The notes under the pieces were generated by a model that was not told where the DNA came from, ran no database searches, and saw only the letters and a list, made by a program, of their open reading frames with translations. Position numbers and translations under genes: made by a program. This document shows, piece by piece, positions 40,296-48,614 of a stretch of DNA of 64,000 bases. Position 1 is the first letter of the stretch. Each line of letters begins with the position of its first letter. The stretch is from Synergistaceae bacterium (GTDB lineage Bacteria > Synergistota > Synergistia > Synergistales > Aminobacteriaceae): assembly GCA_017446055.1 (NCBI GenBank), contig JAFSRQ010000096.1, positions 62,001 to 126,000 of the forward strand, in the 5' to 3' direction.

Positions 40296-40982
40296 CTAAG
40301 GTCTGCCGGAATAATCACGTGGTCCGAACAGAAGAGTCCCTATCCGAATTAATGTGCTTCCCTCAAGGATTGCTGCCTCAAAGTCTCCGCTCATCCCCAT
40401 AGAGAGAATCGGCAGAGCGAGTCCTGTCTCAGACCGTGCATTTTCCGCAAGCCCCCTGAGAGCCGCAAAAGCCCTCCTGATTTCGCGTTCGTCATCCGTA
40501 ATCGGTCCTACAGTCATAAGGCCGTCAAGCCTCAAGTTTTCCTGAGACGCAACAGTGTCGGCAAGAGCGGGGAAATTTTCCGGGCTGACTCCTGACTTGC
40601 TGTCTTCGCCGGACGTGTTGACCTCGATCAGAACGGGGAGGATTTTACCGAGTTCGCCAGCTATACGGCTGAGTCTGTGCGCTAATTCAGGTGAGTCTAC
40701 GCTGTCTACTGTGTCGAAAATCTCGACGGCCTTGCGTGCTTTGTTGGCCTGAAGATGGCCGATGAGCCGCCAGGGGATTCGCGAGTCCGTGTATGACTTG
40801 CGTTTTGCTTCTGCCTCCTGGACTCTGTTTTCCCCGAAGAAGTCGACCCACGAAATATTTTCCGCCTCTCTCATTTCGTCAACAGTTCTGGTTTTGCTGA
40901 CCGCCGCGAAATATACTTTGTCCTTTCGTCCTGCTCTAGACATGGCCGAGTCTATTCGCTCACGTATTGCTTCTGCGTTCAA
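40296..40982 (-). CDS. yggS: YggS/YlmE-family PLP-binding protein
   Basis: A 228-residue TIM-barrel protein that binds pyridoxal phosphate and keeps its level balanced. Family segments are AAVSKTRTVDEMREA (PLP Lys in VSK), FFGENRVQEAEAK, WRLIGHLQANKAR and the phosphate-binding SMGMSGDFEAAI. The start is TTG 40982, behind AAGGAT that lies inside a relic copy of the 3' end of the HlyD-like gene. It is separated from that gene by the repeat array. Confidence 0.93.
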   Translation of the reverse strand: MNAEAIRERIDSAMSRAGRKDKVYFAAVSKTRTVDEMREAENISWVDFFGENRVQEAEAKRKSYTDSRIPWRLIGHLQANKARKAVEIFDTVDSVDSPELAHRLSRIAGELGKILPVLIEVNTSGEDSKSGVSPENFPALADTVASQENLRLDGLMTVGPITDDEREIRRAFAALRGLAENARSETGLALPILSMGMSGDFEAAILEGSTLIRIGTLLFGPRDYSGRP

Positions 40983-40988
40983 TTGTTA

Positions 40989-41535
40989 CCATATCCTTCC
41001 GTTTTTGTCTTTTGTTACTTCTGCGTCAAGTGTGAGTTTGTCGCCGGGAAATCATGCGCTCTCCCTCAATGCACCCGGTTGCGTCCTAATACCGCCGCCT
41101 GTGAGTTTGCCGCCGGGAAATCATGCATTCTCACTCACTGCACCCGGTAGCGTCCTATCGTCGCCGCCTGTGAGCTTGCCGCCGGGGAAATCATGCGTCA
41201 TCACTCAATGCGCCCGGTTGCGTCCTATTGTCGCCTCTGTGAGTTTGCCGCCGGGAAATCATGCATCCTACCTCAATGCACCCGGTAGCGTCCTACATCG
41301 CCGCCTGTGAGTTTGTCGCCGGGAAATCATGCGTCCTACCTCAATGCCCCCGATTGCGTCCTAATATCGCTGCCTGTATGAGCTTGCCGCCGGGTAAATC
41401 ATGCGTCCTCACCAAATGCGCCCGGTTGCGTCCTAATACCGCCGCCTGTGAGTTTGTCGCCGGGGAAATCATGCGTCCTCACCAAATACGCCCGTTCTCG
41501 TCCTTTATCACTCCTGCATCAAGTATGAGTTTGTC
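40989..41535 (-). repeat. Degenerate tandem array of about 69-bp units derived from the 3' end of the upstream gene
   Basis: On the plus strand the unit opens GTGAGTTTGYCGCCGGG, with starts near 41032, 41101, 41170, 41239, 41307, 41376 and 41448 and an eighth inside the coding sequence near 41525; spacings are about 69, 69, 69, 68, 71, 70 and 77. Read on the minus strand, each unit is a decayed copy of the gene end coding GDKLILDAGVIKDENGRIW-stop plus about 15 bases. The copy nearest yggS (about 40989-41047) still spells GDKLTLDAEVTKDKNGRIW-stop. Stops break every frame, so the array is noncoding. Confidence 0.85.
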
Positions 41536-42408
41536 GCCGTGCCTGACCCCCTTCTCGATGAAGAAATTTTCCTCGTCAGCAGGAAATCCCTCAACATCAT
41601 GTGATACTAGGCTGTTGCCCTGAAGAAGGAAGACCTGATTCTTACCGTTGCGGGTAATCACTGCCGTATCAGGAACCATTATCCCCTTCTGTACGTCCGT
41701 AACAACACTCGCCGTAAACCTCCTCGAACGCAATAATCCCGGCGGGAAAAATGGAAGTCTCAAATATACCTTGAGCTTCTGCCCCGATGATTTCACCGCT
41801 ACAACTTCGGCCTTGCGCTCTTTGCCCTCGTTTTCTGTGCGTATCCGTATCGTAGGATTGTCCTTGTTGCGCAATGCCCGCTCAAGCGATGGTGTAGTGT
41901 CAAGATAGGCTATGCATCTGAGTATTTGCGGCTGAGGTACTAATTTCCCGACTGGCTCGCCGCGACGTATATATGTGCCGTCCCCTATGAGCCTTGCGTC
42001 CTGAAAGTCCGGGAAAGGAGCGAAATCCGGCCACAGCTTAGAGTAGACCCAGTTCCCTTCCTGGCCGTCAAGACCCGGGAAAAAGTACGCGGGGTAAGAG
42101 GCGTACACAGGTGAACCATCGAGAGCCGCTATCATCTCACCCTTTGCTGTCATTCTGGAACGCGGAGAAGGGTACGTGATTATCCCGTCTTTTGTGGCGT
42201 ACACAAGCTGCTCATCCCACAATAATATTCCGTCAAGGGGCTGCTCCTCGCTGTAGTTTGTGGTTACCGCCTCGATGATCTGGGGGTGAGAGTGCTTGTA
42301 GTCCTCGTACCATGTTCGGTATACCCTGTAGGACATGATGAATATGAACATGAGAAGGGAATAGTACAGGAGTCTTTGAGGAAGTCCCCTGCGTTTGCGG
42401 CGGCTCAT
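41479..42408 (-). CDS. HlyD-like membrane-fusion/adaptor protein in the yggS-sepF operon
   Basis: A 309-residue protein with one N-terminal membrane helix (about 12-32), a lipoyl/barrel-sandwich-like region (DGIITYPSPRSRMTAKGEMIA) and later beta-barrel segments (MVPDTAVITRNGKNQVFLLQG) as in HlyD-family adaptors. No partner transporter is nearby; the same kind of gene is found beside yggS in other division clusters, so an envelope role in division is plausible. It starts within the folE2 stop (ATGA). Its last 19 codons gave rise to the tandem array downstream. Confidence 0.72.
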   Translation of the reverse strand: MSRRKRRGLPQRLLYYSLLMFIFIMSYRVYRTWYEDYKHSHPQIIEAVTTNYSEEQPLDGILLWDEQLVYATKDGIITYPSPRSRMTAKGEMIAALDGSPVYASYPAYFFPGLDGQEGNWVYSKLWPDFAPFPDFQDARLIGDGTYIRRGEPVGKLVPQPQILRCIAYLDTTPSLERALRNKDNPTIRIRTENEGKERKAEVVAVKSSGQKLKVYLRLPFFPPGLLRSRRFTASVVTDVQKGIMVPDTAVITRNGKNQVFLLQGNSLVSHDVEGFPADEENFFIEKGVRHGDKLILDAGVIKDENGRIW

Positions 42409-43804: not shown

Positions 43805-44667
43805 GGCCTCCATCTTTTGTGAAGCCAGAACCACAGCTCCGGCCTCCTGCGTATGAATCTCTCTATTGCTTTGTTGCACTCAAGGATAATCCTGCGCAGC
43901 CTCTCCTCACGCGGCAATTTTTCGTCAGGCATCTCTACAGGCGGGAAAAATTCTATCTCATGCTCAAACGGTGCGCTGCGGTAAATGCAAACGGGTATTA
44001 CAGGCACTCCCGAAAGCATAGCCATCACCGCCGGGCCGGGTACATTGGTCGCGTCATGCCCCATAAACGGCACAATCACTTTCCCGTTTCCTGCTACATC
44101 ATTCAGGAGGGCAATGTGATTCCCTGACTTGAGGAGATGAGCATACTTCATCACAGAGTAATCACTAGGCAGAAGGTCAACCCCCATGTTATGCCGCAAG
44201 CCGTCAATGTAGGCTGATATGTCCTTGTCGTGAATCCCCTGAGCTACAACGTACATCTGATGACCGAGCCTCTTCGTGTACTGCGCGTACCATGCCGCCA
44301 TAATCTCCCAGTTCCCGAAATGCCCGGAAAGGAACAATGCGCCCTTCTTTTCGTCAATGAGTCTGTCGACCGAATAGATGCCACGCACAGACTTTATCCA
44401 GCTGAAAATCTGCGAGGGGTTGCGCTGGAGGGCTAATATTTCCGTGATAGTCCACGCGAGATTGTCATACATGGCCGTGCGTATGTCCTTGCGCCATTGG
44501 GACGGGGCTTCGGGGTAGGCGAGCTTCAGATTCTCGTCAACAACTTTTGCGCGGGGATGAATGAGCCTGAGGAGACCTGACAGAAATTTTTGCGTTATCC
44601 GTCCTCTTATACCTGTGTCTGCAAGGTGGCGGAAGATGTCTATTGCGTTTACTGCTAACTTGCTCAT
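43801..44667 (-). CDS. LpxL/HtrB-like lipid A acyltransferase family protein
   Basis: A 288-residue protein with the acyltransferase motif SGHFGNWEIMA (the His-x4-Glu variant of the LpxL/LABLAT group), then GKVIVPFMGHDATNVPGPAVMA and VPVIPVCIYR. Length and motif order fit lysophospholipid or lauroyl acyltransferases of lipid A. This supports an outer membrane with lipopolysaccharide. It overlaps its neighbours by ATGA on both sides. Confidence 0.85.
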   Translation of the reverse strand: MSKLAVNAIDIFRHLADTGIRGRITQKFLSGLLRLIHPRAKVVDENLKLAYPEAPSQWRKDIRTAMYDNLAWTITEILALQRNPSQIFSWIKSVRGIYSVDRLIDEKKGALFLSGHFGNWEIMAAWYAQYTKRLGHQMYVVAQGIHDKDISAYIDGLRHNMGVDLLPSDYSVMKYAHLLKSGNHIALLNDVAGNGKVIVPFMGHDATNVPGPAVMAMLSGVPVIPVCIYRSAPFEHEIEFFPPVEMPDEKLPREERLRRIILECNKAIERFIRRRPELWFWLHKRWRP

Positions 44668-45446
44668 TGCGATATGATTTTCCTGTAGAGGCTGATGATT
44701 GAGTCTGTGCAGCGTTCGTGAGACCTCCGGGACTTGAGGAAATGCCGGGCTGTCATTGCCATATGTCTGCCCCTGCTGCCGAGTCCCTGATGTATTATCC
44801 GCGACAAATCATCATCATCATCACCATCACGAATCATGAAGTAACCATCAGGCCCTAGGATCTCGTCAAGGTAGCCGGATTTCTCCGAAGCTATAGCGAC
44901 TCCCCTCATGGTGAGGATACCTGCCCTCATTGCCTCGCGCGGCCCGGTGTCGTTGGCGATGTATATCCCGCTGAGTGTCTCAGGACGTAGCAGCTTCTCT
45001 GTGATGTCGGCGACCTCGTAATCACCTTCAGGGACTCTCCTTCCGTCCCGGACAAAGACAGCCCTCTTGCCGTCCTCGCTGTAACTGCTCAAGGGGTCAA
45101 ACACCGGGAATATCACTGCCTCGCCGGATTTCGCACCCTCAGTGAAGAAACGTGAAGGATGACCCGCCCAGTTGTCTTTATCGAGCAGAGTGTGTACCGT
45201 CCGTGAATGAAGCCTCACGATTCGCCACCAAACAGGAGCGCGTCCGAACAAGTGCCAGATTTCACGCCGGCGGAAAATGTTTCTCACACGCTCAAAGGCT
45301 GCCTTGTGTGAATCCTTTGCGCTGATTACATCGAGGTCGACATTCCGCGAATGAGTACGGAACGCCGCGGCCATGTCCTTTATGACCTGTGCCAGCACAT
45401 CACTCACTGAGGCGGAAATGTACCAGGTGCATGTGTGGGTGTTCAT
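44664..45446 (-). CDS. Glycosyltransferase-like protein (GT-B C-terminal half)
   Basis: A 260-residue protein. Its C-terminal part, IANDTGPREAMRAGILTMRG then SGYLDEILGPDGYFMIRDGD, resembles the donor-binding half of GT4 glycosyltransferases, with Glu of PREAMRAG at the usual place. The N-terminal half is short and diverged. An Asp run (DGDDDDD) is encoded by ATC/ATG-like triplet repeats near 44812-44830 and could vary in length. It sits between tyrS and the LpxL-like gene with four-base overlaps, suggesting a lipopolysaccharide role. Confidence 0.65.
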   Translation of the reverse strand: MNTHTCTWYISASVSDVLAQVIKDMAAAFRTHSRNVDLDVISAKDSHKAAFERVRNIFRRREIWHLFGRAPVWWRIVRLHSRTVHTLLDKDNWAGHPSRFFTEGAKSGEAVIFPVFDPLSSYSEDGKRAVFVRDGRRVPEGDYEVADITEKLLRPETLSGIYIANDTGPREAMRAGILTMRGVAIASEKSGYLDEILGPDGYFMIRDGDDDDDLSRIIHQGLGSRGRHMAMTARHFLKSRRSHERCTDSIISLYRKIISQ

Positions 45447-47073: not shown

Positions 47074-48315
47074 TCAGTACGCCCCCTTGTGTGATATTAC
47101 AGCAAGAGGAGTCTTCATGAGTATAGCTATGTCCAGCCACACGCTCCAGTTGTGGACGTAGTAGCAATTGATCTCCCGGCGAAATTCCGCGTCAAGGTCG
47201 CTCCGTCCGCTGACCTGCCATATACCCGTGAGTCCCGGCTTGGCGGCGTAGACCTTCTTCGTGAACCTCTCACCGTAAACTATATCCGCATCACTCTGCA
47301 TTAACGGCCTGGGACCTACAAGGCTCATCTCACCCCTGAGAACGTTAAGCAATTGGGGCAGCTCGTCAATGCTGGTCTTGCGGAGAATTTTCCCGGTCTC
47401 AGTCAAACGGGGATCATCCTTCAGCTTGATACCCTTCTTGTAGTCAGCAAAAATTTCCGGGTTGCTGAAGAGCCTTCGCGTAATCTCGTCAGCATTCTTG
47501 AACATTGAGCGGAACTTGTACGTCCTGAAATGCTTGCCCTTCCAGCCTACCCTGTCTTGTATGAACATAATCGGTCTGCCATCCTCGCGCCATATACGCC
47601 ACGCCGCCCAGATCATGAACGGAGAGAACACCACCAGAGCAATCACCGCCCCTACATAATCTATCCCGGTCTTTACGGCAATGTTGACGGGATTCAGGAG
47701 TCCCTGAGAGGAGGATATTACCGGCACTCCGTCAATGCTCCTGATTTCGGCGACCGATGTCGTAAGCATGTACATATCCGGGATATACAGAACCCGCCCT
47801 GTTGATGACTCTAACATGTTCAGGATTGAGGATAATTCCTGACGTGAGGCAGTCGGGATTGCTATCACGGCCTCATCAGCATGAAGTTCGGCTTGAAGCG
47901 TCCTGAAGTCTGAGATTTTCCCGGCGACTGGTATCCCGGAGATTTCCGCGCCCTGTTTCGACCCGTCATCGTCAAGGAAGCACAACGCCCGGCGAATCGT
48001 GAAGGGTGATGAAGTGATCTTGTCGGCAAAAAGTTTCCCGGCCTCACCTGCTCCTAGTATGATTACGGTCTTCATGAGCCAGCCAAGACGGAAGAATATC
48101 ACCCGGAAAAAGTATCTTGCTGTCAGTGTCAGGAGTATGAACGCCGCCGCTCCGCCAATGATAACGATGAATGAGAGTACGGACTTTGCCGCGTAAAGGT
48201 ACAGTGTGTTCACGAGAATCATTAGGACTGACGAGCGGAGAATCGACCCGGTTTCGTCCCACAAGGAAAGGTTTCGGAAGCCGTATAATTTCCCGAAGAT
48301 GAAACATGCTGACAT
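47074..48315 (-). CDS. WbaP/WcaJ-like undecaprenyl-phosphate sugar-phosphate transferase
   Basis: From ATG 48315 the product is 413 residues. It has two or three membrane segments, a CoA-binding-like Rossmann region ([17 protein letters not shown]), a long fourth or fifth helix before [13 protein letters not shown], and the PGT domain [28 protein letters not shown] and [14 protein letters not shown]. The frame stays open upstream to about 48426 and codes a further likely membrane helix (YYLFTVLQLIIDIALFQLCI), so the natural start probably lies in or before the 7-bp repeat. It starts glycan synthesis on undecaprenyl phosphate. Confidence 0.88.
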
Positions 48316-48426
48316 TGTCCCGGCAAGAAAGATGCGGGCTTCTCCTGATGCCTTGAACGGTATACATAACTGGAAGAGTGCTATATCAATGATGAGCTGT
48401 AAGACTGTAAAAAGGTAATACGTCAG

Positions 48427-48487
48427 GCGATGTGCGATGTGCGATGTGCGATGTGCGATGTGCGATGTGCGATGTGCGATGTGCGAT
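48427..48487 (-). repeat. Tandem 7-bp repeat (eight units plus five bases) at the 5' end of the WbaP-like gene
   Basis: GCGATGT occurs eight times without interruption (48427-48482) and is followed by GCGAT. Seven is not a multiple of three, so a change in copy number shifts the reading frame. At the present number an ATG at 48500 reads through the repeat and stops at TGA 48423-48425, out of frame with the transferase; one more unit or two fewer would join it to the transferase frame. Confidence 0.9.
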
Positions 48488-48514
48488 TGTACACGGCCAT
48501 GATTCTTGTGTCAA
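48486..48514 (-). promoter_or_regulatory. Consensus sigma-70-type promoter next to the 7-bp repeat
   Basis: On the minus strand TTGACA (48514-48509) and TACAAT (48491-48486) are separated by exactly 17 bases. Transcription would begin about seven bases further on, inside the 7-bp repeat, towards the WbaP-like gene. If this is the real promoter, the ATG at 48500 is not a start codon and the repeat forms the 5' leader. Confidence 0.6.
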
Positions 48515-48614
48515 GCTCCTTTCTGCTACAATGGCTGATTAATGGCAAAGTTATTCTATCATGAAAAAGTTTGCTATGATTCCCCGTAAAATTTATCCCG
48601 CAAGGAGACACACA

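Follow-up and report, generated by a model that had tools for sequence, protein, structure and literature searches.

A perfect heptanucleotide array lies within the 5' end of a glycosylphosphotransferase gene on the minus strand of the 64,000-nucleotide stretch of Synergistaceae DNA analysed here (hereafter the window), between the ATG at 48500 and the long open frame. The array very probably acts as the slippage tract of a slipped-strand translational phase-variation switch. The module to which it belongs, consisting of a Shine–Dalgarno (SD) sequence, a TTGACA-17-TATAAT promoter with an ATG in its spacer and then a tandem array, recurs at 74 sites, all in one genus of uncultured Synergistaceae. 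Comparison of these sites gives good support to the view that surface-glycan genes across the genus share one standard switch module, in which a mechanism of a familiar type takes a new form in a new lineage.

Heptamer array and reading frame

On the forward strand, eight exact GCGATGT units followed by GCGAT occupy positions 48427–48487. TRF describes the array with a period of 7, 8.7 copies, 100% matches and a score of 122, and a regular-expression scan of the window places the perfect octet at 48427–48482; both confirm the eight-copy 7-bp repeat that had been noticed originally. For units of 4–12 nt in at least three copies, the same scan returned besides this array only a three-copy AGGA. 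A search of 61 genomes for exact-unit arrays of three or more copies was positive in 13, each of which belongs to the genus of the window and often has several arrays, and the reversed control pattern gave no arrays. The limitation to one genus and the empty control exclude a chance origin of the array. An Rfam scan of the window matched a single tRNA only and thus no known leader RNA.

Read on the minus strand, the locus runs AAAGGAG, TTGACA, a 17-nt spacer with the ATG at 48500, TACAAT, CGC, (ACATCGC)8 and the transferase frame. AAAGGAG (48516–48522) is a likely SD sequence located 15 nt 5' of the ATG, which is a long spacing; it is about 14 nt in array-free orthologs. TTGACA (48509–48514) and TACAAT (48486–48491) represent the -35 and -10 hexamers of a promoter, P2, and together match 11 of 12 consensus positions. 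Their 17-nt spacer holds the ATG (48498–48500, ATGGCC), and the repeat units start 3 nt after the -10 hexamer. The array as a whole, CGC-(ACATCGC)8 (48427–48487), includes in its last two bases, 48486–48487, the end of this hexamer.

Reading from the ATG at 48500 gives MAVYNRTSHIAHRTSHIAHRTSHIA, a frame of 25 codons that is closed, with eight units, by a TGA at 48425–48423 on the minus strand. The transferase frame continues behind the array for 450 codons (48426–47077, minus strand; stop at 47076–47074), and between the TGA at 48513 and the ATG at 48315 it contains no ATG, GTG or TTG. The two ATGs are 185 nt apart, and the frames are joined by +7 or -14 nt, so that nine or six units yield the full protein. 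Frame reading and distance thus bear out the claim that the ATG at 48500 is out of frame as sequenced and that one additional unit, or two fewer, would rejoin it. Under the proposed mechanism, translation would begin at this ATG and pass through the array. Unit counts that are multiples of three would carry translation on into the transferase, extended N-terminally by (TSHIAHR)n (ON), the eight units present would end translation after 25 codons (OFF), and replication slippage of one or two units would switch between these states.

Identity of the enzyme

The post-array frame encodes a polyprenyl glycosylphosphotransferase with Bac_transf (1.3e-60) and CoA_binding_3 (7.1e-10) domains. It belongs to TIGR03025, the exopolysaccharide polyprenyl glycosylphosphotransferase family, reaching 353.1 bits against a cut-off of 295.55, with post-array residues 15–450 corresponding to profile positions 17–445. 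Its 349.3 bits against TIGR03022, the WbaP family, stay below the curated cut-off of 403. The earlier designation as a "WbaP-like glycan-initiating enzyme" is therefore fair as far as "WbaP-like" goes, but does not extend to an assignment as WbaP proper. In two related genomes (G003:C217 and G004:C72), two glycosylphosphotransferase paralogs stand in tandem, with the module on the first.

Start codon and orthologs

Array-free orthologs start with MAGTRSPFAN-LSYYLF (G030), MAGKKSHIAD-FSYFFF (G010) and MVSQKSSLANH-LSYYFL (G023), each with an AAAGGAG about 14 nt upstream. Another ortholog, G001 (79% identical), retains a short remnant corresponding to one leftover CACATCGC and is in frame as MTAAHR-YSYYVF. 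Because the orthologs begin at the matching place, the start is assigned to a position 5' of the array, and the array itself to the N-terminal coding region. By this comparison the ATG at 48500 is the homologous start codon, which agrees with the prediction that the full-length protein needs a start in or before the repeat.

Copy numbers differ among the orthologs, the comparison being one between species with one genome each, mostly metagenome-assembled genomes (MAGs). G004, with three ACATCGC units, reads in frame (MAAYNRTSHIAHR-LSYALF), whereas G002 (eight units) and G028 (five units) are out of frame with their ORFs intact. In G002, the first possible start 3' of the array is 170 codons into the frame. 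Other units take the same place in G003 (CAATCGC), G005 (TCAACGC) and G017 (the pentamer CACAT). The locus thus has two sequence features of SSR-based translational phase variation: a perfect repeat in the 5' coding region whose unit length cannot be divided by three, and copy numbers both in and out of frame with intact ORFs.

The first internal in-frame ATG (48315–48313, minus strand) is an unlikely start, as no SD sequence is visible before it. Translation from this codon, named beforehand as part of the case that would speak against the switch, would drop about 37 residues that align to the orthologs and partly to the family profile. The CTG at 48426 was rejected as a start, since orthologs have CTC, CTT or CTA there.

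Distribution of the module

With up to three mismatches allowed in the -35/-10 core, the module is matched in 21 of the 43 genomes of the genus. A stricter core is found in 18 of these 43 and is absent from all 140 genomes searched elsewhere in the order (183 order-level genomes). The genome of the window itself harbours at least four copies, namely that in the window and those on contigs C129, C50 (unit TGGTCGC) and C8 (unit CGGCGTT). The relatives comprise uncultured Synergistaceae or Synergistales MAGs recovered from goat, red deer and reindeer, together with "uncultured Fretibacterium sp.". Spacers are more alike within genomes (identity 0.56) than between genomes (0.46), a difference reached in 0 of 1000 permutations. 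Modules lie at contig ends in 9 of 66 cases against 1.6 expected, an excess that fits, indirectly, long or polymorphic, mixed arrays.

Anatomy of the module

Units are 7 bp long at 51 sites and 5 bp at 19, and hence never a multiple of three in the 70 sites with arrays; the remaining 4 of 74 have collapsed or imperfect arrays. The unit sequence varies by locus, and the array always begins at the -10 hexamer of P2. Among 32 sites found by their arrays alone, TTGACA is exact in 26, the -10 hexamer is TATAAT in 27 and TACAAT in five, and the spacing is 17 nt throughout; 30 of the 32 match P2 at 11 or 12 of 12 positions. Since this search did not rely on the promoter, P2 was not brought in by the pattern used for searching.

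An ATG occupies the spacer at 71 of the 74 sites, compared with 32% of shuffled spacers, and is open through the -10 hexamer in 70. From site to site it moves for the most part in steps of full codons. Where the ATG is in the frame that would meet the TAA of TATAAT, the hexamer is altered in six of seven cases. A TAA stop is thus found in the -10 hexamer for 1 of 7 frame-1 ATGs and 61 of 73 frame-0 ATGs (Fisher p 0.0004; with the module sites mutually related, counts are not independent and p-values here and below are indicative only). These frame-aware -10 variants are read as a signature of translation through both promoter and array.

At loci L132, L134, L137, L139 and L041 of G017 and G062, pentamers (ACATC, CGACA, ACACC, CAGTC) stand where other species have heptamers at the orthologous genes. 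This exchange implies that the length and sequence of the unit have been replaced and its position kept.

Promoters

Transcripts from P2 would begin within the array, miss the ATG and so be unable to give the fused proteins. A productive message could come from a second candidate promoter, P1, whose transcript could carry both the SD sequence and the ATG. Its putative -10 hexamer at the window locus, a TAGAAT after a TGA (48558–48553, minus strand), is weak when taken singly; across the module, a -10-like hexamer is located upstream in 64 of 72 sites, compared with about 34 in shuffles. P2 may provide a second output for leader-type genes or may affect slippage. A more specific and rather speculative idea is that near-consensus P2 does not make the productive message and instead keeps the array, placed exactly at the transcription start, melted or transcribed. 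The slippage rate would be set in this way, and the switching frequency of a genus-wide contingency module would be coupled to transcription.

Proposed modes of action and target genes

The module would act in two ways, either by direct fusion, as in the window copy, or through a leader ORF that ends on the start codon of the next gene. Direct fusion, in which one post-array frame opens into a long ORF, is found at 29 sites, seven of them in frame as sequenced. Some of these fused ORFs have no start codon for 80–170 codons 3' of the array, and in some fused copies GT2 and DUF6625 domains start one or two residues after it. At 37 sites, a short leader comes after the array. In 32 of the 37, one frame terminates no more than 10 nt from the start of the next gene, often as ATGA, where shuffles predict 14.3 (binomial p 2e-9). 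This coincidence probably reflects translational coupling. The coupling frame is the one read at 10 of the 32 sites as sequenced. Taken together, 17 of 61 sites (~28%) are ON, consistent with the one third that random frames would give. For leader-type copies, the signal that the SD sequence of the following gene is sequestered is only suggestive, with a mean unpaired probability of 0.18 against 0.26 in mononucleotide shuffles and a mean rank of 0.34 (n=31). Five copies have no clean frame relation: L166, L176, L179, L187 and the C8 copy of the window's own genome. GlgB-like L176, Sel1 L187 and L179 are poor fits and could be degenerate copies or false positives.

The targets are mostly surface-glycan enzymes, as judged from clusters whose sizes come from BLAST linkage and whose Pfam domains were assigned on representatives. 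The commonest are MBOAT O-acyltransferases (16), Bac_transf glycosylphosphotransferases (11) and a nitroreductase-like family (9). Glycosyltransferases are represented by GT61 and GT group 1 (three each) and by GT10, GT8 and GT2 (two each). Polysaccharide pyruvyltransferases, FkbM methyltransferases and LRR proteins occur twice each; the remainder are one sulfotransferase, one further methyltransferase, one hexapeptide transferase that scores below its cut-off, and one protein with Ig/PKD domains. Comparison supports the predicted phase-variation switch of the transferase, but the device is not specific to this gene, as the module fronts dozens of genes.

With nine sites, nitroreductase-domain proteins (MVKELIKSLLGEKN..., about 330 aa) rank third among the targets, and a surface role is not obvious for this family. 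The sites include L009 (G000:C129, from 7685 onward), L132, L137, L147, L155 and L177, and the genes are array-fused or leader-led depending on the species.

Alternative explanations

Several points speak against the switch reading: copy numbers known to differ between species only, the conserved near-consensus P2, whose transcripts would miss the ATG, the long 15-nt distance between SD sequence and ATG, the mutual relatedness of the sites counted, and the few copies that lack a clean frame relation. Conservation of P2, with its 11–12 of 12 positions in 30 of the 32 array-only sites and its invariable 17-nt spacer, would also suit an array that forms the 5' untranslated start of the P2 transcript, as would the fixed array start at the -10 hexamer. 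Copy number would then tune the level or stability of the RNA, and a start codon behind the array would be used. This explanation is improbable. It sits badly with the conserved ATG and the frame-aware -10 variants, with unit lengths that always change the frame, with fused ORFs lacking a start codon for 80–170 codons after the array, and with GT2 and DUF6625 domains that begin almost directly behind it. Such an effect on the P2 transcript could act in addition to the switch, mainly at leader-type copies.

There is very little to be said for a neutral array before a constant product made from an internal start, be it 48315 or a non-standard codon. The ATG at 48315 exists and leaves the Bac_transf domain whole, but residues conserved in orthologs would be lost, the CTG at 48426 is not conserved and several fused copies offer no usable internal start. 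No more credible is a mobile or selfish repeat family, spread and homogenised by recombination and located at glycan genes incidentally. The greater likeness of copies within a genome (0.56 versus 0.46) would agree with it; the restriction to gene starts, the single orientation, the strong bias in target function and the reading-frame constraints do not, and spread by recombination is itself compatible with a switch function.

Relation to known systems

The literature that was searched, which was limited to open sources, held nothing relevant on phase variation in Synergistota. In Haemophilus influenzae, the heptamers of hmw lie in the promoter and the tetramers of LPS genes in the ORF. Like the putative Synergistaceae switches, these hepta- and tetranucleotide contingency loci place several surface-structure genes of one genome under the control of simple repeats (PMC2651432, PMC8262952). 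The H. influenzae literature consulted does not describe a repeated module that combines promoter, start codon and array.

The gene neuO of Escherichia coli K1, encoding the polysialic-acid O-acetyltransferase, contains an (AAGACTC)n array and is translated to full length only at copy numbers divisible by three (PMC3046976). Both systems have a heptanucleotide array in the 5' coding region, repeats encoding N-terminal heptapeptides and a surface polysaccharide as target, whereas neuO is one gene on a prophage, its array lies 2 nt behind the start codon, and its repeat and enzyme are different (PMC3046976). The Synergistaceae module, in contrast, fronts dozens of genes, lays a promoter over the start codon, uses 5- and 7-bp units and has many leader ORFs. 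With its ACATCGC unit and glycosylphosphotransferase gene, the window copy would work like neuO and is no member of the NeuO type.

Leader-type copies recall the pil1 leader peptide of Streptococcus gallolyticus, whose leader ORF holds a (GCAGA)n repeat and whose frame determines where the leader ends and thereby downstream expression, acting through a transcription terminator (PMC3894217). The Synergistaceae leaders differ in ending on the downstream start codon, and the window copy is a direct fusion. No terminator-like site was found on the minus strand between 46700 and 49000, the window locus, which sets this copy apart from the pil1 type. Dispersed heptamers near start codons, with many copies per genome, are also known from Beggiatoaceae, Cyanobacteria and Bacteroidetes as TAACTGA direct repeats, for which binding of a post-transcriptional regulator has been proposed (PMC4679880). 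They differ in that their unit is invariant and usually located a few nucleotides 5' of the start, with no pattern in target function (PMC4679880).

Implications and other features of the window

This ruminant-gut lineage of uncultured Synergistaceae appears to possess a multi-gene phase-variable glycan set built on one recurring module rather than on independent tracts. The module predicts length polymorphism at the named arrays in metagenomic reads, and the arrays may explain contig breaks in these MAGs. The natural series of 5- and 7-bp tracts would also make slippage, start-codon placement and the interplay with an overlapping promoter accessible to study.

Two further features of the window were recorded. 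A 260-aa protein encoded on the minus strand at 44664–45446, whose neighbours are a lipid A acyltransferase homologue and tyrosyl-tRNA synthetase, has no Pfam or NCBIfam match. At 41031–41482, a 69-bp tandem repeat of 6.5 copies with 84% matches, not a switch of the heptamer-module type, lies mostly between the minus-strand ORFs 40296–40982 (a YggS-like PLP fold by eye) and 41479–42408.
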